Shown here: positions 11,072 to 60,510 of the stretch, in pieces
Numbering within the stretch: the first letter of the stretch is position 1
How the letters are laid out: every line of letters starts with the position of its first letter
NCBI GenBank assembly: GCA_014871385.1
Contig: CM026424.1
Location: 1,736,001-1,800,000, forward strand
Reading direction: 5' to 3'
Length of the DNA: 64,000 bases
From: Ceratodon purpureus
Lineage: Eukaryota > Streptophyta > Bryopsida > Pseudoditrichales > Ditrichaceae
Position numbers and translations under genes: made by a program
The notes under the pieces: model-generated
What the model was told of the DNA's origin: nothing
Database searches by the model: none
What the model saw: the letters and a program-made list of their open reading frames with translations, nothing else

Positions 11072-11073
11072 TA

Positions 11074-11098
11074 TAGTAGAGCGTCCAATAATGGCGCA
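11074..11098 (+). repeat. Left terminal inverted repeat of the pogo-like element
   Basis: TAGTAGAGCGTCCAATAATG leads the end, followed by GCGCA, preceded by TA at 11072-11073. It pairs with 17805-17829 on the other strand with two mismatches in the 23-base core. Confidence 0.75.
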
Positions 11099-11584
11099 AA
11101 TTTCAGCATGGAGAATCTGAGTGAGTTTTAGGCGTTGTAGCAATTTTAGTTGATGAGCAAGGCACCAAGGAGTCAAGTGGTTCAAGAATTGAATTTTTTG
11201 AGCAAAGGATGAATTATCTACAATTAAAAGAAGGAAAGGTAGTAGAGTCCCACATGTGGTGCATAGGGTCCATGCGTAAGCAATAAGAGAGAGTTTAGGT
11301 AGAAGACAAAACTAGTTCCAAAATGGAGCAAATGACTCACTGGAAAAGAACAAACGAGATCCTAAATCTAAGGGAGAAGAACTCCCTTTGTGCTAAAAAG
11401 GAGTCTTGAAGTAAGCATTTAGTTCCCATGTAGAGAACATTATTGTCCTATTATAACTCCTTTTTGTTCCCATGATGTGCACCTAGCCACATGCAAGAGC
11501 ACGATCTGTTGACTATCATGGTGCACCAAAAATTCAGGAATGACCTTGCTGGCAAGCAACATTGGCGCGCTTTTTTTGCTTATT

Positions 11585-14500
11585 CTATCTTGGGTTATCG
11601 TTGCTTTCAGATCCAGTGAAGGGTGCCGTTGTGGGGGGGAAGAAGGGAGTCATAAGCATCGGATTGTAGAACATGGGTGGTGGAGACGGCCACACATTTG
11701 AAGTGGGTGGTCGGAATGGAGTTGATGAGGTTGCATGCGACATGTGTGGGTGGAGGTGGGCTGGACGTTGTACATCTCTGCCGAAGGTGGAGAATGCTGT
11801 GCCTGCTCCTCGTTGCAAATCTACTGCGGAGTTGGTGGCACATCTGCCTGCTGCGGCGTTGCACATCAGCTCAGCAGTAGTGCCGCTGCCCCAAACCCCC
11901 TGCGGCCCGCCACCTTGTATCATCTCCGCTGCTCTGGCGTCCCATCCCTCCGCCCCTGTAGGGTTCTGTAGCGACGCACAGCTCCCTACGAAGGTGCTGC
12001 TCCCGGCAAGGTTGCTTTGTGGGTTGTGCCGCCTTCCTCGTCCTCCCCCCGCAGCCCTCCTCTCAGCTTGAAGGCGCTCCTTTTCCAGCCGCTTGGCTGC
12101 ACGTTCAGCCTTCCTTTGATTCACAGCTGCGATGCGCTCCTCTTTTTCTCTCCTTCGAGTTTCTTTGTTTGCAGCTCTCTCTTCAGCTTTGCGCTTTGCT
12201 GCTTCTTCATTCTCTTGTCGCTTTGCTAGAAGTTGCTCACATGCAGAGATGTAGTCTTCTGAGGTCAAGATATGGGATTTTGTGAAATCCAATAGTGGTT
12301 GCTGACGCTTTCTTTTTCGAGCTGGAATAACCTCTGGAAGGGCTAGAAATGAGCTGAAATTTTGATCTTCATTTCGCTCTTGCAGGGTCGACTCAAAATC
12401 TGGATCAATGTTCACAGCCCTGTCTTCCACTTCGTGAGTACTTTCCTCTGCATTAGGAACATTCACATAGTACCTAGGTTCTCGATCTTGCTCTACATTG
12501 GCATTGACGTCATTGCTCGCTGCTGCAGATGGGCCCTCACCGAAGTCTCCCGCAGCAAAAGCGTTGCCTGCTGTGCCGGTACCTAAACCCCATCCCAAAC
12601 CCTCAGTCGTCACATGTTAGGATTTGCGCAGAGCCTGCTTTGCTGCAGCTGTCGTTATTGTCATTTTTGCAGTTAACATCGAAGTGATTAGCAGTCAGAA
12701 GTAATTAGGAGGTTTTGGTTCGGAGTAAAGCCAAGTACCCACCCTCACTTCGTAAGTTTCGATGGCAGCGATGGAGTTCAAGTCAGTTGAATTTAGTGGC
12801 AGCGAGTTCAAGTCAGCGAGTTCAAGGCAGCGAGTTCAAGTCAGCAGGCTACAATAAGTGTTAAGATACATTGGCAAACAGCTATCGAATTATGCGTCCG
12901 TAGAAGGAGTTCTTTACTGCAAGCCACATTTTCAGCAGCTTCTCAAACTCACCGGAAGTTACGATAAGAGCTTTGAGCACAAAGCTACGGATGGTTCGTG
13001 TTCATAAATTAAACTGTAGTTGGTTCATTATTTCGTTTCAACCGAATAAAGCACAGATGCTGTTAGTTTCCTAGTCTGCATGTGGCTGTCTTGTGGATAC
13101 GAGGTTTTATGCGCTCTGTTCCGGTGGCTTAAGCAGTCATTAACTTAACTGGGTTTGCATTTTTCTACATTGGGTGGTTAACAGGATTGAAAAAGCAGGG
13201 TTCCGAGAAGTCAGAGGTATGTTAACTATTGTGCCTTTTTATTTTGTGAATCTACATACTGTAGCAATGTAACCATGGTCTCAGTACCCTCACTTTAGGG
13301 TTCCAGTTCACTTGTAGTTTAGTTTGTCAATATTTAGCCTTCCTAAAGCTCGCAAGTCGCAGCTGCCTTGATCGACTAATTCTAAAAAGCAGGAACACTT
13401 AGGAACACTTAGGATTCTCATCGAACATCATGTATCACACATATAGTTGAACTGGGGATTCTGGCCAGATTCTTCCTCTGGAATTCAGTAATCGATTCTG
13501 GGCCACCTCATGGTTTTGGTTACTAAGACTTAGGGTTCTCGTGAATATGCAGGTGCCTGTGTTTTAAAGGCTTCAAATGCAGATTCTGACGAGTATGCTA
13601 CTGTAGTTTCCAAGTCGCTGGAAATTTTCTTGGATTGCCAGCCCTCTCTGTACGGTATGTTTAATTTCAATTAGTTGCGTCTTTGTTTCGTTTGTACTCT
13701 ACATTTCAAACAAGTCACAATGGTTCTATAGTCACCCTCTATAATGACTCTAGATTCATTCAGGTCGAAGTTGACTTCTTTTCTCTCCTGCTGGTTCAAT
13801 TGCTGGTTTCACTATCTGTGTCATTCTTTCATGCTGTCGTTGATGAACTGTTTAATAATATGTTATTCATTGACTGTCAAGCAGAAGAGTCCCGTTAGTC
13901 TCACACAACTAATAAGATTAAATTACAAATAATGTTACATGTATCTCTAATAAAATCCGCTAAGTACTTCAATCGCTTTGAAGTCAGAGTGAAAGAACGG
14001 TGTTTAATTACATGCATGCTGATAGATTGGGTGGGATGTACTGATCGCAGAAACTATGCTCCCCATTCCGACGACAACCAGAGGTGTTGTAACATTCTAC
14101 CCCAAAAGTCAGATTCAGGTCCTTCAATCATTGCCATTTTTGAGTTATGTTCTTTAGAAAGCTTCGTGACAGAAACTGGTTATTCAGATCTCTTAACGAC
14201 GTCTGGACTAATATAGGTTTTCAAGGTTTTCAAGTTTCTTACCTCTGGCTCTAATTGCTGCAACCTGCTCATCGTCCTCACCTTGCTCGCTGTCGTCTCC
14301 ATCAGAGGCGGAGGATCCCTCTTCAGCTCCAGCTTGGAAATTAGCCGATGGGCCCATATCCCCTGCCAACGCGCCCTTGTCGAGGGGCCAGATTCCTGTC
14401 CGCCTGAAGCCTGCTTTGATGTTGTTTACTGTGAGTGCCTGTCCGAGAGCTTGAGCGGTCCACTCGCACAGTAAGCTCTTCTCCACCTTCTTGTTTGTTT

Positions 14501-17347
14501 GACCCCTCATCCAGTTGTCTCGGATCCTTCTAAATGCCGCTTTAAAAGGTGCGAAGCAAGTCTTGTCGAGAGGTTGCAAAGCATGCGACGTGTGTGATGG
14601 TAGAGTTATAACGTCAATGCCGTGTTGCATGCAAGTTTTTGCGACTTCCATTGTAACATGTGATGTGTGGCCGTCAACTATGAGCAGATGCCTGTTCACA
14701 GGTGAAACCCCAGGACCATCCTCCAATTTCTTCAGAAAGTGAGCAATCCAGCTTTCAAAGAGGAACTTCGTCATCCACGCATTGTGTTGAACTCCCATGA
14801 GAGCTCTAGGTTCGCATCTCTCAACCACGTTTGATGTAAAATTTTTGCCCTTTACAATGTAAAAATTGGGAATCTTTCCACCTGCTGCGTTGATACATGA
14901 AAGTACCGAAATGTGCTCCCTTTGATCAGGTGTGATGGAATTCACTAACTTGCTGCCCTTCTTTGCCAAGACCATTGCTCCACCGTTCTTTGCCCCTTGG
15001 ACACCAGACTCGTCACAGTTCCAGATATGGGACTGTGGATAATTGTGAGTTGAGTACATGTATTCTAGATTAGCATAAAAGCCTTCTACAATTTCAGGAC
15101 ACAAGCCTCGAGCACGGGCAACTGCAAGTTCTTGAGACTTACGGAGTGAAAGTTCAGGATGCCGATTTCGAAAGCTTCTCAACCAGCCGCTGCCAGGTAG
15201 GCCCTTTGCAGTCCAAGGTGTTTGTCGTGCTTGAGTAGCTTGTGCTACTTTAACTCTCAAATCTGTAGGTGTCAATGGATTACCAAGCTCTTGCATTTTG
15301 AAGATGAACTCCACTAATTTCCCTTCTTCATCTTGTTTCAAGGTTGGGCGTATACCTCTCTGTCGCCCAGATGTCGTCGCCCACAAGTGGTTGCGGAGCG
15401 ATGTGGCAGGTATGTTATACATTCTTGCAGCCTCCCGAATTTTCAGCCCATCGTCTTGAATTGCTGATAGTGCTTGCTCCAACTGCGCATCTGTCCAATT
15501 TCCGTTCTTCTTGAGTTTTAACGGCCTGGTGCTTGCTGATGCAGGTGCCCTGCTCCGGAGCTCACCGCCACCCCTACAGCCAGATGTTGCCCTCTGTCGA
15601 ATCCGACCAACCTGCAATATAAACCTAGGTACACATTAGTTTAATTCTAATTCTGAACATCGAAGTAATTAGCAGTCACAAAAGTACTAGCACACATGTT
15701 CCAACTGGATTGTCTGATGGAGGATCACTCGGGCTGGCAAATTGTGTTTGTTGACAACGAGAACGACACACTTCTTCTCGGTGACCATCCCTGGGAGTGA
15801 GTCCTCACATCCAGAAACTGGATTTAATGACCTTCATTTAGGCTTCGTTTAAATCACATGAGTATTACTTGAGTGGTCATTCATCATATCCGTGTCTTTT
15901 TCCATTGACAAATTTTGATGCAAGTGCAACTTTACCTCTGTTGACTAACCTGCGCATATTTTTTCGGAATCATGCAGTGAGTTTCTAAATTGCGTCCGCT
16001 CTGTCAAAATCCTGTCAACCGCGGAAGTGGCTCAAATGAGCCAGGAGAGCCTAAACATGGAGGTAACCAGCTACAGGGGGTAACCTTCTACATGGGGTGA
16101 ACTATGCTTCTGCTGGAGCAGGCATTCAGGAAGAATCCGGCCAAGTCTTCGTAAGGATCAACCTGTGAAATTCTTTTTCCTGATTACTATATATGCTCCA
16201 AAAGACGACCGTAGAAGATTCTGACAATGTGAGTTATATTTCCTGGCTGTGATGGCTAACGCTGTGGATTCGTGTTCAGATCGGCCGTGTTACAATGTCA
16301 CAGCAATTCGATCACTTTACGATAACGAAGCAGCAGATTGCTCTGATGATTGGACAACAAGGGATGGAAAAACTGATTCACAACGGCATCTACTCTTTCA
16401 CAGTTGGAGGTAACGATTACATCAACAACTACATGGCTCTCACATCCAACACCAAAAACATGTACACACTTCCTCAATACCTAGACCGACTAATCACTCT
16501 CTTCAGAGGGCAGATTAAGTTACAATATTCAATCACCTTCAATCACCTGCTCACTATTTTTAAGTACCATGTCGATTATTCGTTTATGAGACAATGAATC
16601 TAAGCTGTAAAAATGACAATCTGCTTGCAGACAGCATATGGTTCGGGATGAGAAAATTCATTATTTCCACGATGGGCCTATCGGTTGCGCTCCTTCTGTG
16701 CTCTCCACAAGAAGCAAGAATGGGGAGTGCGTCCAAGTGGTGAACGACTACGCCATCAACTTCAACAATGCCTTGAAGCCCATGTTGGAGAGCGTTCAAA
16801 CTGAGCTTCCAGGCTCTGTGATTTTCTACGCTAACGCTTTTGGTGTCGTCAAGTCGATCATTGACAACCCCTTGAAATATGGTACAGTTTATATTTTCAG
16901 ATACTAGCTTAATGCTATTTCAGAACTCTAATGCTAGCAGCGAAGAAGAAGTGTCGAGTATTCTCTGAGAAATTTACAGAACGAAGTCTCTGTGTCCTAA
17001 TAGTTTTGTAAATTGATAGGAGTAGTTGCCGGTTTAACTTAGAAATGCTGTACCTGGTGTTGTGTTGAAGCTTGTTGACGGCAACTAAGTGGTTGCTCAC
17101 CGAGTTCTTCATGTTCCCCTTCCTGTCCATCAGCTTCCTCGCTCTGGGATTGTGCAGGCTCTTGCGGTTGCTGTCCACACATGGATGGGTACCCTTGAGA
17201 TTGAATCTCCTCATGTGGTCCTCGATGCTCATCTTCCTCTCTAGTATGTAATCGCAGTGAAGGAATTCGACCTCTTCGCCTTTGTCTACTGCTACTTGCC
17301 CTCTGTGACATTAGTTCATCAAAACTCAGATTATCATCATCCTCCAT
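11585..17347 (-). CDS. Pogo/Tigger-type DDE transposase, three predicted exons, 886 aa
   Basis: Predicted exons: 17347-17054 (ATG start, donor CAG|GTACAG), 15611-14243 (acceptor TATTGCAG, donor AGAG|GTAAGA) and 12582-11585 (acceptor GGTTTAG). The phases join without a break: 294+1369+998 nt. Domains: an acidic, Gln-rich N-terminus; a psq-type helix-turn-helix at about residues 130-175 ([11 protein letters not shown]...AARMYNIP); a CENP-B/Tc5-type second DNA-binding helix with [17 protein letters not shown] at about 240-257; and a DDE_1 catalytic core with Asp 298 (NCDESG), Asp 411 (LIVDGHTSH) and Asp 447 (LQPLDK), a DDD triad with 35 residues between the last two. Exon 3 adds [11 protein letters not shown], a nuclear-localisation-like stretch, and a long Lys/Glu/Arg/Ala coiled coil, the usual tail of large plant pogo-type proteins. 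The enzyme would cut at the terminal repeats and insert at TA. No internal stop is seen, so it may be functional. The catalytic exon is certain; joining exons 1 and 3 is inference. Confidence 0.75.
12779..12845. repeat. Short tandem repeat, GCAGCGAGTTCAAGTCA-like units
   Basis: Four to five imperfect units of 11-17 bp containing CAGCGAGTTCAAG lie next to the captured LIM fragment in transposase intron 2. Confidence 0.6.
12875..13215 (+). pseudogene. Captured WLIM (LIM-domain) gene fragment inside transposase intron 2
   Basis: The exon at about 12886-12989 encodes [18 protein letters not shown] followed by [18 protein letters not shown]. This is the end of the first LIM domain of plant two-LIM actin-bundling proteins, where the consensus is close to [18 protein letters not shown]. 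It follows an AACAG acceptor-like site. A second short exon at about 13184-13215 ([11 protein letters not shown]) follows GGTTAACAG in matching phase and ends at a GTATGT donor, so the intron between them was carried along. The first zinc-binding half, linker and LIM2 are missing. It lies opposite to the transposase and within its intron. The LIM assignment rests on the motif and is good; its status as captured host DNA is inference from position. Confidence 0.65.
13555..13653 (+). pseudogene. Unidentified exon-like fragment inside transposase intron 2
   Basis: Following a TATGCAG acceptor, one frame stays open across about 99 bases, encoding [18 protein letters not shown] and then [16 protein letters not shown], and ends at GGTATGTTT, a usable donor. 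The frame reads like a helical segment of a eukaryotic protein. I cannot name the family. It may belong to another captured host gene. Confidence 0.35.
15705..16062 (+). pseudogene. Captured auxin response factor (ARF) PB1-domain fragment inside transposase intron 1
   Basis: Two exons with their intron. Exon A (15705-15796) encodes [18 protein letters not shown] and then TLLLGDHPW; exon B (15978-16062), after a TGCAG acceptor in matching phase, encodes [14 protein letters not shown] and then [15 protein letters not shown], ending at a GTAACC donor. This is the C-terminal half of the ARF type I/II PB1 interaction domain, including the acidic OPCA-like motif (VDNEND...GDHPWDEF) that docks Aux/IAA and ARF partners. 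The DNA-binding domain, middle region and PB1 N-terminal half with the conserved Lys are missing. Retention of the intron shows DNA-level capture, not a cDNA copy. Family assignment is strong; no promoter or start is visible. Confidence 0.8.
16100..16885 (+). pseudogene. Captured GDSL esterase/lipase gene fragment inside transposase intron 1
   Basis: Three exon pieces with introns. The first (about 16100-16154) encodes [19 protein letters not shown] and ends at GTAAGG. The second (about 16280-16518) encodes [13 protein letters not shown], block III with the oxyanion Asn. The third (about 16631-16885) encodes [10 protein letters not shown], then after a one-base shift GPIGCAPS, and runs to DNPLKYG at a GTACAG donor. 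Order and spacing follow plant GDSL lipases. The catalytic Ser block (GDS) and the last exon with the Asp-His pair are absent, and the frame changes between ISTMG and GPIGC because a base is missing, so no active enzyme can be made. It lies directly after the ARF fragment in the same orientation. Confidence 0.8.
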
Positions 17348-17684
17348 TTCTGAAACTATGTGTGTGCATAATCTGTTTACAATCTGAAGTTGCAAATGAA
17401 GCACTCTAAACTCATCAAACTAAACAAGTCGAAACCAATTTGTGAACAATGAGAATTGAAATATGAATGCAAAACAATTGGAAATCGTGCACTGCATTTC
17501 AAATTAATGCACAAGCCGCACATTGGTTTATGAGTAGGCCGCCACTATTAACCAACTAATTTTACTGAATAATCTGTTCTGCATCAAGTAATAAATGCCC
17601 CACACTTGTTTCATAACTACCCAGCCAATCATCCAAAAAGTGCCATACCACTTTTGTAGAAATGCATGATGTCATCCAAAACTT

Positions 17685-17829
17685 GTATAGTTCCATTCAA
17701 AAATGGCGCAATTTTCATCCACGGCTACAAGCCGTCACTTTTTACACATTAACTGATCAGTTCTTGAACACCCTACGTTGTTACTAGAGCTCCATTTTCG
17801 GCACTGCGCCATTTTTGGACGTTCTACGA
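17685..17829 (-). repeat. Right terminal inverted repeat with a subterminal copy
   Basis: The terminal repeat is 17805-17829 (read on the minus strand: TCGTAGAACGTCCAAAAATG followed by GCGCA), with TA at 17830-17831. About 100 bases inward, 17696-17710 holds AAAAATGGCGCAATT in the opposite orientation, so this end forms a subterminal palindrome that could be a second transposase binding site. Confidence 0.65.
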
Positions 17830-17831
17830 TA

Positions 17832-33476: not shown

Positions 33477-34797
33477 ATGGGGTCGTGGATACCGTCGTGG
33501 ATGGCGTCGTGGATGGCGTCGTGGGTACCGTCGTGGATGGCGTCGTTGTGGAGTGGTTCCCCAGCTGAGGACGCTTGTGTTAACAGCTCCAACTCTTCTG
33601 GGCCAGAAAGTATCACGAAGGTATTAAGTGTACTTGTGGTGCATTTGGAAAGAGTCTTTGATTTTTCATCATTTGACGATTTCAAGAAAGGGGCTCAAGG
33701 GAAGGGTTACATAAACTATCCCTATGATTGTCTTAAACCACAGGTGTTCGTTGAGGAGCCCTATGAATCCTAATTTGTCCTTGAACTTGTGTATTTGCAG
33801 ATCAGTAATGGAGTGTACAAACTTAGTGAACCTGGTGGGCCTCTTAAAGTTGAAATTGTGTTCATCCATGGACTACAACTATTTGACTACCGTGATGCGT
33901 ACTGGAAAACTTGGATTGCTGGAAAGACGGACAAAGACGGCAAAGAGTTCTGTTGGCCAATCGCATGGCTGGCAGGGGATGTTCCTGGAGCTCGAATTTG
34001 GTCCCTCTCCTACGACTCCACAGCCTTGAGGACAGGCACAACAGGAAATGTGGATGGATATGCATCCGGAGAATCTCTAGTACAGGAGATGGTTGAGTTC
34101 GCCAAAATAGGGCGACATAACTGCCCGGTTGTGTTTGTTTGCCATAGTCTTGGAGGTTTGATGGTCAAGGAGATAGTGAAGCATGCACATGAGAAATTTG
34201 GGAAGGATGAAAAGTATAAAAACTTTCTCCAGAGCATAAGAGGGTACCTCTTCTATTCGACACCCCATGATGGGTCTTGCCTGGCTGATTATTGCAAGCA
34301 CCTGCCTAAGATGGGAAAGATGGTTTCCCGCTTGGAGGTCATCAACGATGGGATTGGCCGTCTGAATTCAAGTTTCGAAGGCATTGAAAAAGATTACTAC
34401 CCCAATAGATGGCAGTACTCCGCTATTGGAGAAGCTCATATGACCAAAGTACCATGTGTAAGGACCTAATGACCCACCTTACCAGTCCTCCACAGATCTG
34501 TGCTCTATGATTTATAACCACATCTAAAACTTTCCTTCTTTTGCTGTGCAGACAGGGATCGCTGTAAAGATCGTTGAGGAGACTTCAGCACGCCATGGGT
34601 ATAAGCACTTTATGACTGCACCAGCTGATCACTTTGGCGTCTGCAAGCCAGAAGAAAAAACAAGTATCAGCTACCTGCGATTGCTGAATCTCATCGAGGA
34701 TGTGGTGGGTGACAAGCCTAGTCTTCAGACCAATGATGAAGTTAAACATGACAGGAGTGAGCTAATCTACTCTAAGGTCGTGCAAAGGATGCGTTGA
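33477..34797 (+). CDS. SERAC1-like alpha/beta hydrolase, three predicted exons, about 348 aa
   Basis: Predicted exons: 33477-33620 (ATG, donor CGAAG|GTATTA), 33801-34457 (acceptor TTTGCAG, donor ATGT|GTAAGG) and 34552-34797 (acceptor CTGTGCAG, stop TGA); all junctions are phase 0. Exon 2 has the hydrolase fold: VEIVFIHGLQ (oxyanion strand), WSLSYDS, and the nucleophile elbow VFVCHSLGGLMVKEI with Ser in GHSLGG-type context, then GYLFYSTPHDGS. Exon 3 carries ADHFGVCKPE, the usual place of the catalytic His. SERAC1-type domains act in lipid or ester metabolism, and in liverworts they form the N-terminus of hydrolase-NBS-LRR immune receptors. Here the frame stops after the hydrolase and no NB-ARC follows. 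Exon 1 is uncertain: it encodes a Trp-rich repeat (PSWMASWMAS) from a minisatellite and may be UTR. Confidence 0.7.
33479..33550. repeat. 15-bp minisatellite, about 5 units
   Basis: Five copies of units like GTCGTGGATGGCGTC lie in tandem. In the predicted exon 1 frame they encode repeats of the form (P/A)SW(M/V/I). Confidence 0.75.
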
Positions 34798-46098: not shown

Positions 46099-49000
46099 AT
46101 GGCAACATCCCCCATGGATGTGGATTCTGGTGAGATTCTTGATATTGGTTCAATGTATTGGTTGAAGGAAGAGAGATCTTGGTGAATTTAGAATTTTACT
46201 TTCCAAACACAATGCTAATCTGAGATGATGTTTGGAGGGGTGACATATCATAATTATTTGTAAAATTCAGCATTGCGGGTGAGTGACTTCCAATCAAGTT
46301 AGTGCGGCATTTTTGTATTGAAATATTTGCTATTATAACCATAAAATGCAAATGAGGTGAAGATAGAGGTAGATCATGAGCGAGTATCTAGGTGAGAATA
46401 GGGTTAGATTTACATATATTATTACTCTGATGTACCTCAGCAAATTAATGGAATCAACATTGCAGTTACCTGTAAATGAAGAAGTTTGGAGAATATTATC
46501 ATAGCAATAAGTTATGTTTGGATTGTGTTTAATCTTGGACATGTAACATGTTTAATGTAGCTCTAATAATCAAATTTCTACGCAGGGTGTGGTTCTTGCA
46601 CACAAGAAGAATTTCTGCCTCCAATCGAGGTCGCCGGAAGTAAAGAGTCAAAGGCTTTGGCTAGTGGCCCCAGTTTTGGTTCACAAGATATGGTTGTGGG
46701 ACCATTTGCCAAATTCCGCAATGCCATTACAATCATCGAGCAAATCCAGAAGTTGATTTCCGAATCTGATATGGTATGGAACAAACAGCAATGCAAACGC
46801 ATTGCCGATCGTTGCAGTTTCCTTGCTGAATTAATGGCGGGGATGGTTCAGGACGAAAATTCTGTTGTTAATCAAGCCTCTGATGGTGGCAGCAGTAGTA
46901 GTGAAGAAGTTAATGGACTCCTTCATGTGCTACTGAAGGTGAAGATCTTCATTTCAGGCTATGTTGACAAATCTCAAGCAATCACCAATGTGATATGCCG
47001 GACAAATAACCCAGAGGCTTTTAAGGAGCTTCATGAGGAGTTGGACGACGCCATGGCAAAGCTTGGTTTGCAAGGGATGGAAGATGCAACTCAGTTAACT
47101 TCTGGAGTGGAATCGAAGATGAACATGTTGAGAGCAGATGCTGAAGAGGACAAGGAGGAGATGCTGAAAATGCTTTCTCAAATGTCGGAGTCTGCCCGAA
47201 CAACAGAGATGAATCAGGACCTGAAGAAATTAGCACATCAGGTGGTTTTGGATAAAACAACAGATTTGGACGTTAAGAAACTAGTGAAAGACAGTCGTGA
47301 TAAATTGCCAAGTTATCTCAAAATTGCTCAAACGGAGATAGAACTTGGTGAGCCTGTACGCCAATATGAAAGGAAAAGCGAACGAGATCTTTTGCATGAG
47401 GTTGGTTGGGCCGAGGTAAGGAAGGGAAAATTTCTTGATTGCGACTTCGCTATCAAGGTGTTCAACTGTGGTGCAGATGATGGTAGCCGGGCTACATGGA
47501 ACCAAGAACAGCTGTTGATTGAGGCTGGCTCATTGGTAGAATTGCAACATCCTCATGTTGTCCGGCTTGTGGGTTTCGGGCAAGATAAAAAACAATCAGT
47601 TTTTGTGATGGAGTTAATGGACGGAGATCTTCGAAACTTCATGACAACTAAACTGAAGGCTACACCAAAGCCTGCTAAACCCTTCACAGACAGTGAAGCG
47701 CTCAAGATTATAATGCAAATTGCACAAGCCATGTATTTCATTCACACTAGGGGATATGCACATGGAGATCTCAAGTGCTCCAATATTGTGGTTAAGAAGA
47801 ACCGTGGCCAATATCTTGAAGTCAAGATCGCTGATCTCCGAGGCTCTCAGAAGCGTGGAGAATGGAACCCTGAGGCGTTCGAGAAAGCAAGCAAAACAAG
47901 ACGACCTCGATGGACTGCACCTGAGGCTCTTGATCATTATGGTCGGGATCGTGAACCTTCTTGGGAGGACTTAAAGCGTATTGATATTTACAGTTTTGGA
48001 ATGACCTGTTACGAAATTGTAACAGGTAATTTTCCATTTCATGGGATAAGAGATGAAGGCGTTCTCCTCGAAATGATAAAGAAAGGGGAGAGGCCGAAAT
48101 TGCCGGAGACCTTGGCTGATCATTTCAAGGGACTGATAGCATCATGTTGGGAGGAAGATCCGAAGAAACGGCCAAGTTTTGAGAAAATTTGTCAGTTTTT
48201 AGATAATGTCCCGTCACCTCAAAAGGATCGTTTTTCCAATTTTGCTGTGATGCTGAGTCAGTTTACGGACAAGATGCCAAGGTGGGTACTGGGTCTAGGA
48301 AAAGAACAGTCTGAATCTTCTCGTGGAATTTCTGACAGTGCCGATATATTACGACCTGAAGACATGAGAAATATTCCTGAATACCAGTACTTGAAAATTG
48401 AGCCAGAGGCCCTGAAAAGAGTCACTGCGGAACCTATTGGGTCAGGATCATCTGCAAAGGTTTACAAGATAACCTGGTTAGGTTGCACATTTGCCGAGAA
48501 GGAACTAAGGAAAAGCAAGTCATATGCTAAATTCGTGCAGCAGGAAATAGAGTCCTTGATAAGAATTAGCCATCATCCTTTCATGGTGCAGCTGGTTGGT
48601 CTATCGGTGAAGCCGAATGGGGTATGTTCGATTATAATGGAGTACATGGATGGAAATCTGCGGAAGCTAATCGATACTAGATTGAAGAAGAGGAAAGGTG
48701 CATATGGGACCAACAGGGAAGGGCCCTTTGATCTTCATGAAGCAGTGCAAATCATCTCCAAATTTGCATTGGGTATGGCATATTTGCACTCCCGGAACTT
48801 GGTGCATGGAGACTTGAAATCTGAGAATGTGCTTGCCCAGGAATATTCTGGAATTATAGATGTGAAGATTGTGGACTTTGGAATGTCGCATCTTGAAGAG
48901 TCTCTGGAATTGAGTGATACAGAATCAATCTTTACAGAATCGAGTGACACGGAATTCAGTGTTGCTGAATCCAGTGATACATCTGAGGCACCGAAGACAA

Positions 49001-49395
49001 AGTTCTATTACAGGGGCTGGGGTACTGATTTCTATCGAGCACCAGAAATGTTGCGCATTGATGGGGAGGGTCCCAAAGAAGAATTGTCCAAGCTGGGGTT
49101 GCCTGATGAAGATTCAACGGCAGACCTGCAGGCAAAGAAGGCAACAGATGTCTTCAGTTTTGCAATGACATGTTACGAGGTCTTAACTGGAAACCGTCCA
49201 TTCTCAGATCGTCGACCAAAACCGTGTGAAGTGAGATCAGGTCTCAGGCCAAAGTGGACCTTAAATCCGAATCTAGACCCGAAGTGGCTCCAACTGCAGG
49301 CGATTGTTGAACGATGTTGGTGTACGATTCCAAAGGAAAGACTAACCTTTAATGACATTTGCAAAGAGCTACTGAGCTTTCAAACTTCCAGTTAA
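46099..49395 (+). CDS. Tandem (dual) protein kinase with HeLo/MLKL-like N-terminus, two exons, 946 aa
   Basis: Exon 1 (46099-46129, MATSPMDVDSG) joins exon 2 (46586-49395) through a GTGAGA donor and a CTACGCAG acceptor in phase. Residues about 45-190 form a helical bundle resembling the HeLo-type domain of plant MLKL-like proteins. Kinase 1: Lys 301 (FAIKVF), catalytic loop HGDLKCSN at 403-410, DFG replaced by DLR at 427-429, APE at 455-457; its Gly-rich loop is degenerate. Kinase 2: intact GSGSSAKV, Lys 649, HGDLKSEN from 751, DFG 774-776, APE 829-831, with about 50 residues between DFG and APE that include an acidic Ser/Thr repeat (TESSDTEFSVAESSDT). Both lack the Arg of HRD (non-RD), as in many immune kinases. 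Kinase 1 may be a pseudokinase and kinase 2 the active one. Similar kinases head NBS-LRR receptors in mosses; here there is none. A role in immune signalling is inference. Confidence 0.85.
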
Positions 49396-49863: not shown

Positions 49864-50223
49864 TATAGAAAGGATAAAATACTCAGCAAGCAATGACTAA
49901 CTTAACGACACTTCACATGCTCCATCTGACTCCACACAACTCCAAGTACTGCAACGAAGGTTTATTGATCGGCATCAATCACCTAGTACAATGCTAGTGA
50001 CACTAGCCTAACATACACGGACTCTCCTCAGGCTCCAAGAACACACTCTAGGATACCCGTTCGACAAGAGAAGAGAGAGAGTCACACTGGTACCAAGGAC
50101 CTATGTACGCTACAGTGATTTCTGGTCCGCCACTCACAGGTGGCAGTCGACCGTATGTGGGCTTCCCGCCCAGTGGTAACTACGCATGCGTATACACTAA
50201 CTAGTGAGAACTTAGAATATCCA
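49864..50223 (-). repeat. LTR 1 (left-most, outer 3' LTR)
   Basis: On the element's sense strand it runs from TGGATATTCTAAG to CCTTTCTATA, so its ends are TG and TA instead of TG...CA. The inner edge is set by the adjoining purine-rich tract GCGAGTGGGAGT (could shift by three bases); the outer edge by the point where unit sequence and left flank diverge. It contains an AATAAA poly(A)-like signal and a 12-bp palindrome TACGCATGCGTA. It appears identical to LTR 2. Confidence 0.8.
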
Positions 50224-50240
50224 AAACTCCCACTCGCATC
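50224..50240 (-). other. Polypurine tract of unit 1
   Basis: Sense GCGAGTGGGAGT lies directly before the 3' LTR, where plus-strand priming occurs in LTR elements. The same tract is present in units 2 (from 55348) and 3 (from 60472). Confidence 0.6.
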
Positions 50241-50262
50241 GTAGTTAGTACTGTGCTTCCGG

Positions 50263-51048
50263 CTATGGGGAAACTGCACTGAGACCGAGTAGGGATCGCA
50301 AACGCTGGAAGCGGTCTCGAGGCAGTGGCTTTGTAAAAATGTCGGCGATATTATCATCCGTTGAGACATACTCGACGTTGAGGTCACCGTTCTGGTAGTA
50401 CTCCCGTATCACATGATATTTGATATCAATGTGTTTTGTCCGCTGATGGAACTCTGGGTTCCGGATTAACCGGATAGCGGATTGATTATCCGAAGCAAGC
50501 ATGGTAGGCTGAGACTGAGGGAACCCAATATCACCAAGTAAACGACGCATCCAGCGGATTTCCCTTGCAGCTCGGTGTGCCGCATAATATTCAGCCTCCG
50601 TTGTGCTGCTGGCGGTTGTATTTTGCTTCTTGGAACCCCAGGCAACGCGGCCGCCATTAAGCATCAGGACAAACCCTGACCTGGACTTGCGATCGTCTTG
50701 ATCCATAGCAAAATCCGAGTCGCAGTAGGCGGTCAGCAGATTGCTGCAGTTGTCGCCACCGTACGTGATGCAAAAAGACGAAGTCCCTTGCAGATACTTC
50801 ATGACCCGTTTTAAAGCGGAAACATGAGGGGATTGAGGAGCAGAGTTGAACTGACCAGCACGGCTTACTGAGTATGAGATGTCGGGGCGGCTACCACTTG
50901 ACGCCCACTGCCAAGCGCCTACACACTCCTGGTATGGGAAGGTGGAGTCGAGCTCTTCAGTACCGAGAGCGCCATCTGTGCGAAGTTGAGCAGCACTTGC
51001 CGGATCAGCAGGAACAACCACGGGAAACGCATCAGAAAAACCGTATTT
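50263..51048 (-). CDS. RNase H part of pol, unit 1, in frame after a stop codon
   Basis: About 261 codons that continue the pol frame after the TAG at 51051-51049. It holds the copia RNase H: YCDSDFAMD (first Asp), TEAEYYA (Glu), ASDNQSAI (Asp) and DNIADIFTKPL (last Asp). There is no early ATG, so expression would need readthrough of the TAG or internal initiation. The sequence is otherwise intact, and the same break occurs in all three units. Confidence 0.8.
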   Translation of the reverse strand, partial: KYGFSDAFPVVVPADPASAAQLRTDGALGTEELDSTFPYQECVGAWQWASSGSRPDISYSVSRAGQFNSAPQSPHVSALKRVMKYLQGTSSFCITYGGDNCSNLLTAYCDSDFAMDQDDRKSRSGFVLMLNGGRVAWGSKKQNTTASSTTEAEYYAAHRAAREIRWMRRLLGDIGFPQSQPTMLASDNQSAIRLIRNPEFHQRTKHIDIKYHVIREYYQNGDLNVEYVSTDDNIADIFTKPLPRDRFQRLRSLLGLSAVSP

Positions 51049-54000
51049 CTACAGCTTTGCTAATATATAGCGCTCCTGGTCAATCTGGAGAAGCCTCTGC
51101 TCTCGAATCCGGACTATATGCAAACCGACATATACTTCAGGGTAGCCAGTTGTAATCTTGAATGCATCGCCCATATAGGATAATATGTAGGTGACTCTGT
51201 CAGGGGCTGTGCTGATGGCCATGCCATCGTCAACGAAGAGTGTTATGATCAGACGAGGGCTGTGACGACTGAAATACACACACCCGTCAGCAGAGGTAGC
51301 AGTGAGATTGAACTCACGTAGGAACGAGTTGAACTTTTGGTTCCAAACTCGGCTGGACTGCTTGAGTCCGTAGAGAGCCTTCTTGAGGCGGCATACCAGA
51401 CCTGCATGAGCGGGGTCTTCGAAGCCAAGAGGCTGCGCCATATAAATCTCTTCGGAGATTTCCCCATACAGGAAAGCGGTTTTTACATCAAACTGCGTGA
51501 TATCCATGTCCTCTGCGGCAGCAACTGACAAAACCGCACGAATGGAGTCGAACTTGATCACGGGGCTAAAGGTCTCGGTATAATCCACATCTTCTCTTTG
51601 CGTGAAGCCTTTAGCAACAAGCCTCGCCTTGTACCTATCCACGCTTCCGTTTGCAGCAAGTTTATGTTTAAAAACCCACTTGTTCTTGATTGTGCGTCGC
51701 CCCGGGGGTAGAACTTGGTATTCCCACGTTCCATTCTCAATAAGAGAGTCAAACTCTTCCTGCATTGCGGCTTTCCAGTGATCACGCTGATCCAAGGACA
51801 TTGCTTCTTGGTACGTCTGTGGGTCGTCAGGTATCGGAACGTGTGCAACACATGCATAACTGTTGCGATTAATGGGATAAATCCACTCGCCATGTCTGGC
51901 AGGTGGTTGCCGTTGACGCGGTGGGAGAGGTTCGGGCTCTGGCAGGTGAACCTCCGCTTGGCGAATAGGACTCGCTGATCTTGACGGTACAGTGTCTGAC
52001 GGCTCAGCGGACACGGGGTCGTCAGCGTCGGATATATCAGCTCCTGCTGCGATATGGAGTCCCCAGGTGGCAGCGGCATGGCCAGTGGGGGACATGGAAT
52101 CCTCCTCTGTGGACTGGCTAGGTGGATCAAAGGCCTCGACTTCTTCGGTCGGAAGTGCACAGGGGTCATCGCCCAGGGGGGCATGTGGGGCACCTAATCC
52201 GGGTGCAGGTGGTGCACCAGCCCCAACTGCCTGTGGGTGCATGCCTACTCCCACTACTCTCATTGGAACAACGGCTCCCACTACAGCTGGCGGCCCGCCT
52301 CCTCCCACTGCTCCCACTGGAGGGTCGGCGTCGATATAACCCAGGGGAACCCAGTCGGGTTGATCAACTATAGCAGGGCTGCTGGGAACCGAAACAGGAA
52401 CGGAGTCCTCGTTAAACAAAACATCTCGGGCCTCTACAATTTCCTTGGAATCGGTGTCCCAAATTCGGTAGGCCTTGCTGGTTTCGGAGTATCCCATCAT
52501 CAGTCCCTTGCGGCTCTTGGGATCCATCTTCTTTCTCAGTTCTTTGGGGACGTGGACGTATGCATCGGCTCCAAATACTCGCAAGTGGGCAACAGATGGT
52601 TTCACGCGGTGCCATGCCTCAAAAGGTGTCTGATCGGCGAGGGTACGGGTGCCTGTGCGATTGAGCACGTAGGTGGCGTTCATGATCGCTTCTCCCCAAA
52701 GGCGAGTAGTAAAATTGCTTGCATGTATCATACTGCGTGCAGCTTCAACAAGAGTACGGTTGTCTCGCTCCGAGGCACCATTTTGCTCAGGTGTGTATGC
52801 AACAGTGAACTCCTGGCCGATTCCTTCATCCTCTAGCATCTTGGTGAATCGACTGCTGGTGTACTCACTCCCTCGGTCACTGCGTAGAATCTTTGCGGTG
52901 TATCCTGTCTCCCTCTTCAACCGCGCCAAGAAACGTCGGAACGAGTCGAAGGTGTCAGGCTTGCTTCTGATGCACTCAACGATGCGGTACCCCGTAGCAT
53001 CATCTTTAAAGAGAGCGAAATACAGAGCCCCACCAATGCTAGGCACTTGCATCGGCCCACACAAATCGGTGTGCACAAGGTCTCCAGGATGTTCGGCCTT
53101 GACTCTTGGGTCACTCCCGGGAAACTTGGTACGGTGGTGTTTCCCGTACGCACAACCTTCACAAAACTGCTCACCCTCGGTGTCAGTGAGTATGAGACCG
53201 TCCACCATACCAGTCGACACCATCTTCTGAACCATACCATGACTGAGATGTGCCAATCGGCGGTGCCAGCGATCAAGAGACTGGGTGCTAGCCTTCTTGG
53301 TATCCATTCCAAAGGAACGAGCGACGTTCGCTTGGTTTCCTGCATCTTCCTGGCTGATTGCGGAGATTTTGAGCTGATACATCTGGTCTTTGATAACTCC
53401 CCGCATGATAACTACGCCTTCATGGATAAGCTCACATCCGTGCTTCATGTGCAACGTAAAGATATCCCTCTGGGCAGCCTTGTAGCATGAGAATAGGCTT
53501 CTTCCAAGGCCCGGAACAAGCAATACATCAGTGAGGGTTGCGACTTCCAAACCAGTGTCTGTCTTGATGTGAATCAAGATATCACCGACCCCTGTTGCAC
53601 GCATGGCGACTCCTCCGATTCCTTCTACAGGCGAACTCTGATCGTAAGAGATGGGTGTGAAAGTATGAAACCATGAGGGCTGATCCGTCATATGCTGCGT
53701 ACAGCCGCTGTCAGCAACCCAGTACTGACTGGTTGGTCTTGACGAGCTAGCCATCAGTGCAAAATGAGTGCCGCTCTGGTGAGCTGGGCTTGGAAGTGCA
53801 TCGTTGCTGCACTCATCCGCCCAAGAAGATGTAGCGGGACCAAAACCGGAATGGCATAAGGAGGACCGGGCCAGAAATGCTTTCTGGGGTCCACCGGTCT
53901 TTCCTTTGCTAGAGGTGTCATCCGATGGCTTGGTCTTGCTTGTGTCCTCTTTCTTCGCATCTGAGGTGCACTCCTTAGACCAGTGCCCCTTCTCGCCGCA

Positions 54001-54771
54001 CTTCCAACACTCGGTACCCTTCTTTCGATCTTCGATCTCCTTACGACGAGTCTGTCGCTGCTCGTAAGTCTGGCTGGATCTTGAGTCTCCTGATCCACCT
54101 TTGGTCGATCCACCCTTGCTGCTATCACCCTTGCCTTTCGACGAGGCTGCCACATATGCCGTCACCTTCTCCGATGTGGCATTCAGACGATTCTTGATTC
54201 GAGCTTCTTGCTGGTACATCCGCAGGCTGAGGGTTTCCAAAGTCTTGGAGGCTTCTGCGGTAGTGTCCCATGCACTGAGGACATTGTCATAACCTGCAGG
54301 TAGAGAGCTCATGACCTTGGCAATTACAGCATTATCAGTGAAGGTGGAGTCACCTCGACTCTTTAGCTGGTTAACGATCACCTCTAGGTTTGAGATGAAT
54401 GACGCTATGCTCTCTCCCTCATTGAGCGTGCACTTATAGAACTTCTGCTGCAGAGCGTGAACACTCTCGCTAGCATCTTGCTCATGAATTAGCTTAATCT
54501 TAGACCACATACCATGAGAGGTAGTGCAACTGATGACATGTTGCAAATGCTTCTTGTCAAGGACTTGACAAAGAAGACTGATAGCTTGGTTATCCTTCTT
54601 AACCCAAGCTGTTTGATCGACACCTGCCTCTGCCGGCTTTGGTTCCGTACCATCTACCACGGACATTAACTCTTTACCAAGAAATACCGCACGCATTTGA
54701 AACTTCCACAGGTGGTAGTTCTCGCCGTTGAAACGGTCTATGTTACCCAAGTCTAGCTTGGACTCTGCCAT
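51049..54771 (-). CDS. Copia Gag-Pol polyprotein, unit 1, 1,240 aa to an in-frame TAG
   Basis: ATG at 54771 (MAESKLDLG). Gag of the UBN2 type at about residues 1-200; zinc knuckle CWKCGEKGHWSKEC at about 253-267; protease active site WVADSGCTQHM at about 350; GAG-pre-integrase HHCC (WHRRLAHLSHG...CEGCAYGKHH) at about 500-545; integrase with D in HTDLCGP, D in RSDRGSEY and E in EQNGASERDN at about 565-665; a Pro/Gly/Ala-rich spacer; then reverse transcriptase with WKAAMQEE and the catalytic FVDDGMAIS at about 1182. PEQNGASERDNRT is closer to animal and algal copia than to the PQQNGVAERKNR of common plant lineages, from family knowledge. The frame ends ILAKL-stop just before RNase H. Codon use is GC-richer than the surrounding plant DNA. 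Confidence 0.9.
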   Translation of the reverse strand: MAESKLDLGNIDRFNGENYHLWKFQMRAVFLGKELMSVVDGTEPKPAEAGVDQTAWVKKDNQAISLLCQVLDKKHLQHVISCTTSHGMWSKIKLIHEQDASESVHALQQKFYKCTLNEGESIASFISNLEVIVNQLKSRGDSTFTDNAVIAKVMSSLPAGYDNVLSAWDTTAEASKTLETLSLRMYQQEARIKNRLNATSEKVTAYVAASSKGKGDSSKGGSTKGGSGDSRSSQTYEQRQTRRKEIEDRKKGTECWKCGEKGHWSKECTSDAKKEDTSKTKPSDDTSSKGKTGGPQKAFLARSSLCHSGFGPATSSWADECSNDALPSPAHQSGTHFALMASSSRPTSQYWVADSGCTQHMTDQPSWFHTFTPISYDQSSPVEGIGGVAMRATGVGDILIHIKTDTGLEVATLTDVLLVPGLGRSLFSCYKAAQRDIFTLHMKHGCELIHEGVVIMRGVIKDQMYQLKISAISQEDAGNQANVARSFGMDTKKASTQSLDRWHRRLAHLSHGMVQKMVSTGMVDGLILTDTEGEQFCEGCAYGKHHRTKFPGSDPRVKAEHPGDLVHTDLCGPMQVPSIGGALYFALFKDDATGYRIVECIRSKPDTFDSFRRFLARLKRETGYTAKILRSDRGSEYTSSRFTKMLEDEGIGQEFTVAYTPEQNGASERDNRTLVEAARSMIHASNFTTRLWGEAIMNATYVLNRTGTRTLADQTPFEAWHRVKPSVAHLRVFGADAYVHVPKELRKKMDPKSRKGLMMGYSETSKAYRIWDTDSKEIVEARDVLFNEDSVPVSVPSSPAIVDQPDWVPLGYIDADPPVGAVGGGGPPAVVGAVVPMRVVGVGMHPQAVGAGAPPAPGLGAPHAPLGDDPCALPTEEVEAFDPPSQSTEEDSMSPTGHAAATWGLHIAAGADISDADDPVSAEPSDTVPSRSASPIRQAEVHLPEPEPLPPRQRQPPARHGEWIYPINRNSYACVAHVPIPDDPQTYQEAMSLDQRDHWKAAMQEEFDSLIENGTWEYQVLPPGRRTIKNKWVFKHKLAANGSVDRYKARLVAKGFTQREDVDYTETFSPVIKFDSIRAVLSVAAAEDMDITQFDVKTAFLYGEISEEIYMAQPLGFEDPAHAGLVCRLKKALYGLKQSSRVWNQKFNSFLREFNLTATSADGCVYFSRHSPRLIITLFVDDGMAISTAPDRVTYILSYMGDAFKITTGYPEVYVGLHIVRIREQRLLQIDQERYILAKL

Positions 54772-54973
54772 GGCTAACGACAACAACTCTTACACAACAA
54801 GAAATCTGGACCTGACTCTTCGACAAGAGGATCAGTGACTCCTTATTACAACAGTACTGACGGTACTCGCTTGACAGAACGACTTTCACTGTAGCTCACT
54901 TTTTAGAAGAAACTTCAAACCGACTCTAGTCTCTCTATAGTTGCTGACTGGACCGCAGCTTAATGCAAACGCC

Positions 54974-54987
54974 GTGGGCCCATAACC
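54974..54987 (-). other. Primer binding site of unit 1: initiator tRNA-Met anticodon arm (half-tRNA type)
   Basis: Sense GGTTATGGGCCCAC abuts the 5' LTR end. Its complement GTGGGCCCATAACC equals the anticodon stem-loop of eukaryotic initiator tRNA-Met around the CAU anticodon. Drosophila copia and yeast Ty5 use this site with a cleaved 5' half of the tRNA; most plant Copia elements instead start with TGGTATCAGAGC, matching the tRNA 3' end. An identical site lies at 60098-60111 for unit 2. Confidence 0.85.
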
Positions 54988-55347
54988 TATAGAAAGGATA
55001 AAATACTCAGCAAGCAATGACTAACTTAACGACACTTCACATGCTCCATCTGACTCCACACAACTCCAAGTACTGCAACGAAGGTTTATTGATCGGCATC
55101 AATCACCTAGTACAATGCTAGTGACACTAGCCTAACATACACGGACTCTCCTCAGGCTCCAAGAACACACTCTAGGATACCCGTTCGACAAGAGAAGAGA
55201 GAGAGTCACACTGGTACCAAGGACCTATGTACGCTACAGTGATTTCTGGTCCGCCACTCACAGGTGGCAGTCGACCGTATGTGGGCTTCCCGCCCAGTGG
55301 TAACTACGCATGCGTATACACTAACTAGTGAGAACTTAGAATATCCA
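54988..55347 (-). repeat. LTR 2, shared between units 1 and 2
   Basis: It serves as 5' LTR of unit 1 and 3' LTR of unit 2, and appears identical to LTR 1 by eye. Confidence 0.85.
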
Positions 55348-55386
55348 AAACTCCCACTCGCATCGTAGTTAGTACTGTGCTTCCGT

Positions 55387-56172
55387 CTATGGGGAAACTG
55401 CACTGAGACCGAGTAGGGATCGCAAACGCTGGAAGCGGTCTCGAGGCAGTGGCTTTGTAAAAATGTCGGCGATATTATCATCCGTTGAGACATACTCGAC
55501 GTTGAGGTCACCGTTCTGGTAGTACTCCCGTATCACATGATATTTGATATCAATGTGTTTTGTCCGCTGATGGAACTCTGGGTTCCGGATTAACCGGATA
55601 GCGGATTGATTATCCGAAGCAAGCATGGTAGGCTGAGACTGAGGGAACCCAATATCACCAAGTAAACGACGCATCCAGCGGATTTCCCTTGCAGCTCGGT
55701 GTGCCGCATAATATTCAGCCTCCGTTGTGCTGCTGGCGGTTGTATTTTGCTTCTTGGAACCCCAGGCAACGCGGCCGCCATTAAGCATCAGGACAAACCC
55801 TGACCTGGACTTGCGATCGTCTTGATCCATAGCAAAATCCGAGTCGCAGTAGGCGGTCAGCAGATTGCTGCAGTTGTCGCCACCGTACGTGATGCAAAAA
55901 GACGAAGTCCCTTGCAGATACTTCATGACCCGTTTTAAAGCGGAAACATGAGGGGATTGAGGAGCAGAGTTGAACTGACCAGCACGGCTTACTGAGTATG
56001 AGATGTCGGGGCGGCTACCACTTGACGCCCACTGCCAAGCGCCTACACACTCCTGGTATGGGAAGGTGGAGTCGAGCTCTTCAGTACCGAGAGCGCCATC
56101 TGTGCGAAGTTGAGCAGCACTTGCCGGATCAGCAGGAACAACCACGGGAAACGCATCAGAAAAACCGTATTT
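55387..56172 (-). CDS. RNase H part of pol, unit 2
   Basis: Protein identical to the unit 1 copy; in frame after the TAG at 56173-56175. The single base change of this unit (T at 55386) lies one base beyond the stop codon and does not alter the protein. Confidence 0.8.
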   Translation of the reverse strand, partial: KYGFSDAFPVVVPADPASAAQLRTDGALGTEELDSTFPYQECVGAWQWASSGSRPDISYSVSRAGQFNSAPQSPHVSALKRVMKYLQGTSSFCITYGGDNCSNLLTAYCDSDFAMDQDDRKSRSGFVLMLNGGRVAWGSKKQNTTASSTTEAEYYAAHRAAREIRWMRRLLGDIGFPQSQPTMLASDNQSAIRLIRNPEFHQRTKHIDIKYHVIREYYQNGDLNVEYVSTDDNIADIFTKPLPRDRFQRLRSLLGLSAVSP

Positions 56173-59895: not shown

Positions 59896-60111
59896 GGCTA
59901 ACGACAACAACTCTTACACAACAAGAAATCTGGACCTGACTCTTCGACAAGAGGATCAGTGACTCCTTATTACAACAGTACTGACGGTACTCGCTTGACA
60001 GAACGACTTTCACTGTAGCTCACTTTTTAGAAGAAACTTCAAACCGACTCTAGTCTCTCTATAGTTGCTGACTGGACCGCAGCTTAATGCAAACGCCGTG
60101 GGCCCATAACC

Positions 60112-60471
60112 TATAGAAAGGATAAAATACTCAGCAAGCAATGACTAACTTAACGACACTTCACATGCTCCATCTGACTCCACACAACTCCAAGTACTGC
60201 AACGAAGGTTTATTGATCGGCATCAATCACCTAGTACAATGCTAGTGACACTAGCCTAACATACACGGACTCTCCTCAGGCTCCAAGAACACACTCTAGG
60301 ATACCCGTTCGACAAGAGAAGAGAGAGAGTCACACTGGTACCAAGGACCTATGTACGCTACAGTGATTTCTGGTCCGCCACTCACAGGTGGCAGTCGACC
60401 GTATGTGGGCTTCCCGCCCAGTGGTAACTACGCATGCGTATACACTAACTAGTGAGAACTTAGAATATCCA
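60112..60471 (-). repeat. LTR 3, shared between units 2 and 3
   Basis: Third copy in register with the 5,124-bp period, apparently identical to LTRs 1 and 2. The PBS of unit 2 (60098-60111) abuts it on the left. Confidence 0.85.
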
Positions 60472-60510
60472 AAACTCCCACTCGCATCGTAGTTAGTACT
60501 GTGCTTCCGG

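Follow-up and report, generated by a model that had tools for sequence, protein, structure and literature searches.

Introduction

How DNA transposons pick up host genes has often been argued from non-autonomous elements. Among the closest described systems are the Pack-TYPE transposons including Pack-Mariner, which are elements with terminal inverted repeats (TIRs) that hold host-gene fragments and for which Mariner-type (Stow) TIRs were surveyed in rice and maize (PMC8903248). They are defined as non-autonomous, and the Pack-TYPE pipeline classes an element with a transposase match as autonomous, not as Pack-TYPE (PMC8903248). Here we analyzed a 64,000-nucleotide stretch of the moss Ceratodon purpureus (the window), in which an initial annotation made from the letters alone had proposed a pogo-like transposon with fragments of several host genes. 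The moss element resembles Pack-TYPE elements, since it has TIRs and captured host-gene fragments, and departs from their definition, since four of the 11 copies with both ends paired code for an intact predicted transposase (PMC8903248).

Other systems share single features with it. CACTA elements of Chenopodium also bear a transposase and hold host-gene fragments outside the coding sequence, but they belong to another superfamily and the compared fragments lie in the 5' region upstream of ORF1 (PMC8978399). Soybean Tgm-Express1 is likewise a DNA transposon with several gene fragments (PMC2613891, PMC1947982), but it is a 5.7-kb CACTA element with five such fragments, named apart from the autonomous element (PMC2613891). 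The maize elements Ds2 and Ds-l4 contain internal filler DNA partly derived from intron-containing genes, for which repair of excision breaks was suggested as the mechanism, but they are non-autonomous members of the hAT superfamily (PMC3260210). Turmoil-1 of C. elegans is a transposable element that incorporated protein-coding sequences; unlike the moss element it is from an animal, and its two coding sequences lie within inverted terminal repeats and not in transposase introns (PMC2572040). The pogo family of Tc1/mariner has the same type of transposase as the moss element, with two transitions to plants named, Selaginella and dicots; in the available text of that paper the word "intron" does not occur and "capture" appears only in a reference title (PMC7325037).

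In the literature that we searched, whose partial coverage makes this weak evidence, neither host-gene cargo in a pogo element nor serial, nested capture within transposase introns was reported. The initial annotation had presented pogo gene capture with a retained transposase as undescribed. We amend this in one respect, since transposase-bearing capture is in print for CACTA (PMC8978399), as is Pack-Mariner (PMC8903248), while the combination of pogo, introns and nesting appears new. In other words, gene capture by transposons is already known, and serial capture in the introns of a transposase-coding pogo element appears to be new. Our data suggest, with a probability of about 0.8, that a recently active pogo-type family with a three-exon transposase gene loads host-gene fragments into its two introns by ectopic repair.

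The element shares both ends with other copies

All genome searches were made in the host assembly of Ceratodon purpureus, a single genome of 362.5 Mb in 151 contigs, one of which measures 110.5 Mb. The ends of the window element form imperfect TIRs, with 21 of 23 matches in the repeat proper; when the flanking TA is counted in, the 27-nt arms (11072-11098 and 17805-17831) are 89% complementary. The left 201 bp gave at least eight full-length matches at 99-100% and at least eight more at 82-96%, and the right 230 bp gave at least seven at 97-100% and at least nine more at 72-95%; these counts are lower bounds, as the best 40 of 132 matches (left) and the best 40 of 223 (right) were scored. Chance pairing of the window ends is excluded, because copies of the ends recur across the genome.

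Both ends were paired for 11 copies, namely C10a, C10b, C3, C2, C11, C6a, C4 (the window copy), C5, C4b, C10c, and C13b. TA stands on both sides, in differing flanks, in 10 of them, the exception being C4b, whose right end is degenerate or lost. TA flanks are typical of Tc1/mariner, and the moss family has two marks of pogo/Tc1-mariner elements, TIRs common to its copies and a putative TA target-site duplication. The inverted ends and TA flanks noted in the window alone are thus confirmed by the sequence and by the recurring ends, and the copies do not stop at different points. With C1 and C6b, which were read without both of their ends being paired, the cargo map covers 13 copies; end matches outside this map lie at C13:480413, C11:6448626, C6:26622421, C6:19576054, and elsewhere. 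Comparison of the flanks of nine copies with the sequences gathered in the analysis found no paralogous site.

Among the best 40 matches for each end, the terminal 41-47 bp alone were matched in 24 on the left and in 23 on the right. Four pairs of such terminal-only matches, among the matches listed, span 311-319 bp and look like miniature non-autonomous relatives.

Donor loci lie elsewhere and the cargo differs between copies

The copies found by their ends differ in cargo. Twelve of the 13 mapped copies hold identified host pieces, which trace to 17 donor loci at 81-100% identity, with spans that total ~10 kb. The donor set includes ARF/GDSL, LIM, SPX, IST1, two LRR kinases, WD40, legumain, kinesin, and pfkB. 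Some of the pieces are nested inside earlier captures. Specifically, C10a, C6a, and C1 carry a piece of the SPX gene (95-97%) with an IST1 piece (93-95%) inside it, while C10b and C2 share an LRR-kinase piece (99.7% over 289 bp) that contains a second LRR-kinase piece, together with 183 bp of the LIM piece; the LRR identity of these pieces is taken from LRR matches in the donor genes that adjoin the captured parts. C10c and C13b share the L050 piece with a nested piece of the pfkB locus, into which, in C10c alone, a kinesin piece (98.1%) is nested in turn. C5 and C6b hold a WD40-gene piece (~95%) and L045. C3 has three pieces that were not found in the other mapped copies: L046 at 98%, legumain (L047) at about 97% (96.6%), and L048 at 100% over 446 bp. 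Complex captures are shared by C10b and C2, and by C4 and C11, at different chromosomal sites; therefore the cargo moved with the element.

Two additional insertions were observed in these copies. The ARF piece of C10b and C2 contains a ~372-bp insertion (L010 5336-5708) with no obvious inverted ends or target duplication by eye, which is possibly another capture. C10a contains a 3.3-kb insert (L009 323-3659) with 1.2-kb inverted arms and CCAGGGTTG ends, which interrupts exon 1 at its 3' end and resembles a nested fold-back element.

In the window copy itself, the initial annotation had listed fragments of an ARF, a GDSL lipase, and a WLIM gene. Donors were sought and their identity measured, and all three have one, at 96.3% on C13 for ARF and for GDSL and at 99.1% on C3 for LIM; the separation of ARF from GDSL did not stand. 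At the C13 donor, ARF runs past one border of the block and GDSL past the other, with the same ARF/GDSL junction in between. This identical junction, with both genes extending further, argues that an existing fusion was taken in one piece of ~1.2 kb, and rules out ARF and GDSL as two captures. The window exons themselves score below the Pfam cut-offs (GDSL, E=0.00073, 20.2 bits against 23.6; AUX_IAA of the ARF, E=0.0041, 17.4 bits against 22.7), and the GDSL domain exceeds its cut-off in the C13 donor locus. The LIM piece was identified through its C3 donor, where LIM matches over the cut-off lie on both sides of the captured part. The description of the cargo as multi-exon fragments with introns is right for ARF and GDSL; the LIM piece, judged by eye, holds one exon and part of the next intron. 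The exon that had been left without a name is a host piece with a 97% donor stretch (L036) on C2, in which a Pfam scan of C2:26470763-26470862 gave no match.

At the fusion locus L034 (C13:5912000-5917200), the 3' part of the ARF is joined to a GDSL lipase that lacks the first exon of the C2 gene; a GDSL gene retaining this exon sits on C2 (L038). A matching stretch is also present on contig C55, and a 17-bp tandem repeat stands at the ARF/GDSL joint in the window copy.

The predicted transposase gene is intact in four copies that carry cargo

The minus strand of the window copy predicts a spliced gene of three exons with GT donors and AG acceptors, coding for 886 codons plus stop. Exon 2 matches DDE_1 (E=1.9e-23), HTH_Tnp_Tc5 (5.7e-6), and HTH_psq (8.2e-6), all over the curated cut-offs, and a D-D-D triad was read by eye. 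The three Pfam families and the intact frame of the window copy agree with the pogo-type transposase of the initial annotation. The element can be classed as pogo-type (Tc1/mariner-like) by its domains, TIRs, and TA, an assignment made without a pogo tree. The full 886-aa frame is present in C4, C10b, C3, and C2, and all four bear host DNA. Between the main clade and the C10c/C13b clade, exon 2 shows a nonsynonymous divergence (dN) of 0.11-0.15 at a synonymous divergence (dS) of ~2, which is near saturation, giving dN/dS of 0.05-0.08; these values point to purifying selection on exon 2 between the two clades.

Identified cargo lies in predicted introns and mostly antisense to the transposase

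In the eight copies with all three exons located (C10a, C10b, C3, C2, C11, C6a, C4, and C5), each of the identified pieces falls within one of the two introns, a placement that the initial annotation had missed; exon 1 of C10a and C6a is unaligned over its last bases. In C10c and C13b the pieces stand between the aligned parts of exons 2 and 1, and in C1 and C6b they stand beside exon 2. Ten of the 11 captures that can be assigned to genes are antisense to the transposase (two-sided p=0.012); for this count, the coding strands of the 11 donors were entered by hand from the gene assignments. Selection on the transposase would account for both the location and the orientation of the cargo, because a transposase transcript would be unaffected by splice and polyadenylation signals that lie on the other strand.

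Junctions and a mosaic tract suggest how pieces were captured

A pair of related copies gives a view of one capture from both sides. C13b has a continuous 238-bp match to the pfkB locus, and in C10c 53 bp of the same piece are replaced by a 478-bp kinesin fragment; C13b, a sister copy, shows the state before the kinesin capture of C10c. Other captures also removed sequence: the SPX piece lost ~174 bp to the IST1 capture, L036 lost ~139 bp to the L037 piece in C6a, and roughly a single base went with the L043 capture. Across the copies, 48 pairs of neighboring pieces are separated by under 25 bp; many of these pairs represent a single junction that several copies inherited. Neighboring pieces overlap by 1-5 bp or stand 1-20 bp apart, by BLAST borders that are approximate and have no chance expectation attached. 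The 9-bp and 22-bp rows of the border list were left out of these marks: hand alignment of the 9-bp overlap at the left ARF border shows no clear shared bases, and the 22-bp gaps are located inside the SPX piece.

The GDSL tract of C3 is mosaic. Fourteen sites of the type of the C2 GDSL gene occupy alignment columns 61-303 and 13 sites of the element type occupy columns 378-786, which maps the breakpoint of this one-sided conversion tract to within 75 alignment columns. C3 also carries 331 bp more of the C2 GDSL gene upstream, joined to ARF over 2 bp. We read this arrangement as one broken end that would have invaded the parent gene of its own cargo, copied outwards, and been end-joined. A longer, ancestral GDSL piece in C3 is ruled out by the mosaic tract and by junction bases of the C13 type. 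Taken together, the capture marks agree better with templated repair synthesis and end joining than with further transposon insertion.

Discussion

The reading that this family loads its transposase introns by ectopic repair rests on the ends shared with TA, the predicted intact frames in copies with cargo, the donors elsewhere, the intronic and nested cargo, and the transport of that cargo. In the mechanism that we propose, a break would arise inside the element, most likely as the gap left by its own excision. The broken ends would copy ectopic host DNA by synthesis-dependent strand annealing, at times switching template, and would then be sealed by end joining, either at microhomology or through short filler. 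Patches in exons or terminal binding sites would be lost, while intron patches would survive since they are spliced out, all the more if the splice and polyadenylation signals that they bring run antisense to the transposase. The homology of the cargo may also steer later repair to the parent gene, as in C3.

Several observations weigh against this reading or narrow it. Breaks that arose independently of excision would produce identical marks, and it is less certain which way copying went for donors at 81-91% identity. No gene is assigned to six of the 17 donors (L036, L037, L045, L046, L048, and L050), and C4b holds no identified piece. The autonomy of the element is inferred from the intact predicted frame; seven of the 11 paired copies are without a demonstrated intact frame, C11 having a single premature stop and the other six being broken or only partly modelled, and among the four intact copies dN/dS ranges from 0.30 to 1.04 on very few changes, with two of six pairs near 1. 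As copies were located through their ends, captures inside the terminal 200 bp would escape. Exons 1 and 3 of C10c and C13b are aligned in part and one flanking exon was not found in C1 and C6b, so that the intron limits in these four copies are estimates. In the orientation count, the GDSL extension of C3 (L038) is not independent of the GDSL piece, and the captured part of the sense exception, pfkB, lies only downstream of the last assigned coding stretch. Within the C3 tract, L038 has a private base absent from C3 at columns 224 and 290, which we read as later changes in L038, and at column 513 C3 shares the L038 base, as does C11. A 5-bp repeat on either side of the legumain piece in C3 might, taken alone, resemble a target-site duplication.

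C4b was also considered as a lean ancestral form and rejected, as the alignment of its exon 2 stops at base 1354 of 1369, without the donor site. Its short second intron looks like a deletion, because the end of exon 2 and the splice donor are absent.

The same anatomy could have another trigger, with random breaks repaired by patches in the introns of a long-lived repeat that a transposon merely spread. In its favor, break repair in general leaves short overlaps, filler, nesting, and small deletions where pieces were captured; however, 17 donor spans seem a large number for random breaks in the 13 copies of a single small family, and we consider this explanation unlikely, though deserving of weight. 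It is very improbable that other gene-capturing elements (Helitron, Pack-MULE, or CACTA) brought the cargo by inserting into the pogo introns. Some gene shuffling did proceed independently of the pogo element, as the ARF-GDSL fusion is also present outside it. The insertion of a separate fold-back-like element into C10a and the repeat beside the legumain piece could likewise be counted in favor of such insertions; but the C10c/C13b pair is a replacement that deleted 53 bp and not an insertion with duplication, the IST1 and C6a L037 captures deleted ~174 and ~139 bp, and the donors differ between copies.

Only the mixture visible in a single window speaks for resident host genes with a transposase inserted among them and no larger element. 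Other chromosomes carry the same arrangement with both ends and TA flanks, and the ARF, GDSL, and LIM donors on C13 and C3 are located elsewhere and extend past the captured parts; the copies with shared ends and the distant donors rule this explanation out, and we give it practically no credence. An addition to the repair reading would be that fragments are kept for a benefit, such as camouflage that hides the element from silencing, or an action on the parent genes through small RNAs. The antisense orientation of 10 of 11 captures fits a benefit, and camouflage was suggested for CACTA captures (PMC8978399), but tolerance in introns explains location and orientation without one, which leaves the addition improbable.

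Building on ectopic repair, we tentatively propose, at a little short of even odds, that the transposase introns act as a loading dock. Host-gene DNA would be gained serially without loss of the transposase, antisense loading would protect its expression, and captured homology would draw the next repair, forming a ratchet. If so, the element would be a self-sufficient, continually recombining gene shuffler, and not a defective by-product. The young copies, several donors at 97-100%, the before/after pair, and the C3 tract make the repair model directly testable. These findings also suggest that sorting elements into "autonomous" and "gene-carrying" ones can overlook a class, since cargo would go unsought in a pipeline that ends at a transposase match, as that for Pack-TYPE does (PMC8903248). 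That a selfish gene can carry cargo cheaply in its introns is an idea of general scope that can be checked.

Features of the window copy

Table 1 Coordinates of the pogo-type element, its predicted gene, and its cargo within the window.
Feature	Position	Strand	Basis
Complete pogo-type element, window copy (C4)	11074..17829 = C4:1747074-1753829		ends common to other copies, TA on both sides
TA target-site copy, left	11072..11073		sequence; TA on both sides in 10 of 11 paired copies
TA target-site copy, right	17830..17831		sequence; other paired copies
Left TIR	11074..11098	+	inverted-repeat comparison of the ends
Right TIR	17805..17829	-	inverted-repeat comparison of the ends
Transposase exon 1, 98 codons	17054..17347	-	open frame and GT donor; same in other intact copies
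Transposase intron 1, 1442 bp, with SPX remnant and ARF-GDSL block	15612..17053	-	predicted
Transposase exon 2, HTH_psq, HTH_Tnp_Tc5, and DDE_1	14243..15611	-	Pfam; splice sites
Transposase intron 2, 1660 bp, with LIM, L036, and L037 pieces	12583..14242	-	predicted
Transposase exon 3, through stop codon	11585..12582	-	open frame, splice sites
Second L037-like piece	12706..12762		98.2% over 57 bp
14-bp tandem repeat adjoining the LIM capture	12800..12845		repeat scan
Captured LIM (WLIM-type) fragment, one exon and part of next intron	12871..13336	+	99.1% over 466 bp to C3:20565952-20566417
Older captured piece, donor-like locus C3:10314705 (L037)	13354..13485		85.7% over 133 bp
Captured L036 fragment	13491..13590	+	97% over 100 bp to C2:26470763-26470862
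42-bp remnant of older SPX-gene capture, donor-like locus on C7	15648..15689	+	92.9% to L041
ARF part (AUX_IAA/PB1 exons with intron) of ARF-GDSL block	15681..16056	+	right limit from ARF-paralogue match
GDSL-lipase part of ARF-GDSL block	16069..16888	+	block 15681-16888, 96.3% to C13:5914031-5915241

Other observations

The genome has many more distant pogo transposases; among the best 93 of 975 candidates, which were scored, 12 match at 73% or more, and many of the scored matches lie in open frames of 800-1165 aa, perhaps lacking introns of the kind that hold cargo in this family. Elsewhere in the window, positions ~50000-64000 hold a tandem array of three nearly identical copia-type units, which repeat every 5124 bp; the window end truncates the third. 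The first two are 99.96% identical, and the third is 99.97% identical over the 3652 bp compared. Positions 46657-49395 contain a 912-aa open frame with, by eye, apparently two protein-kinase domains in one protein, and positions 33789-34469 a 226-aa frame that by eye resembles an alpha/beta-hydrolase- or lipase-type protein.

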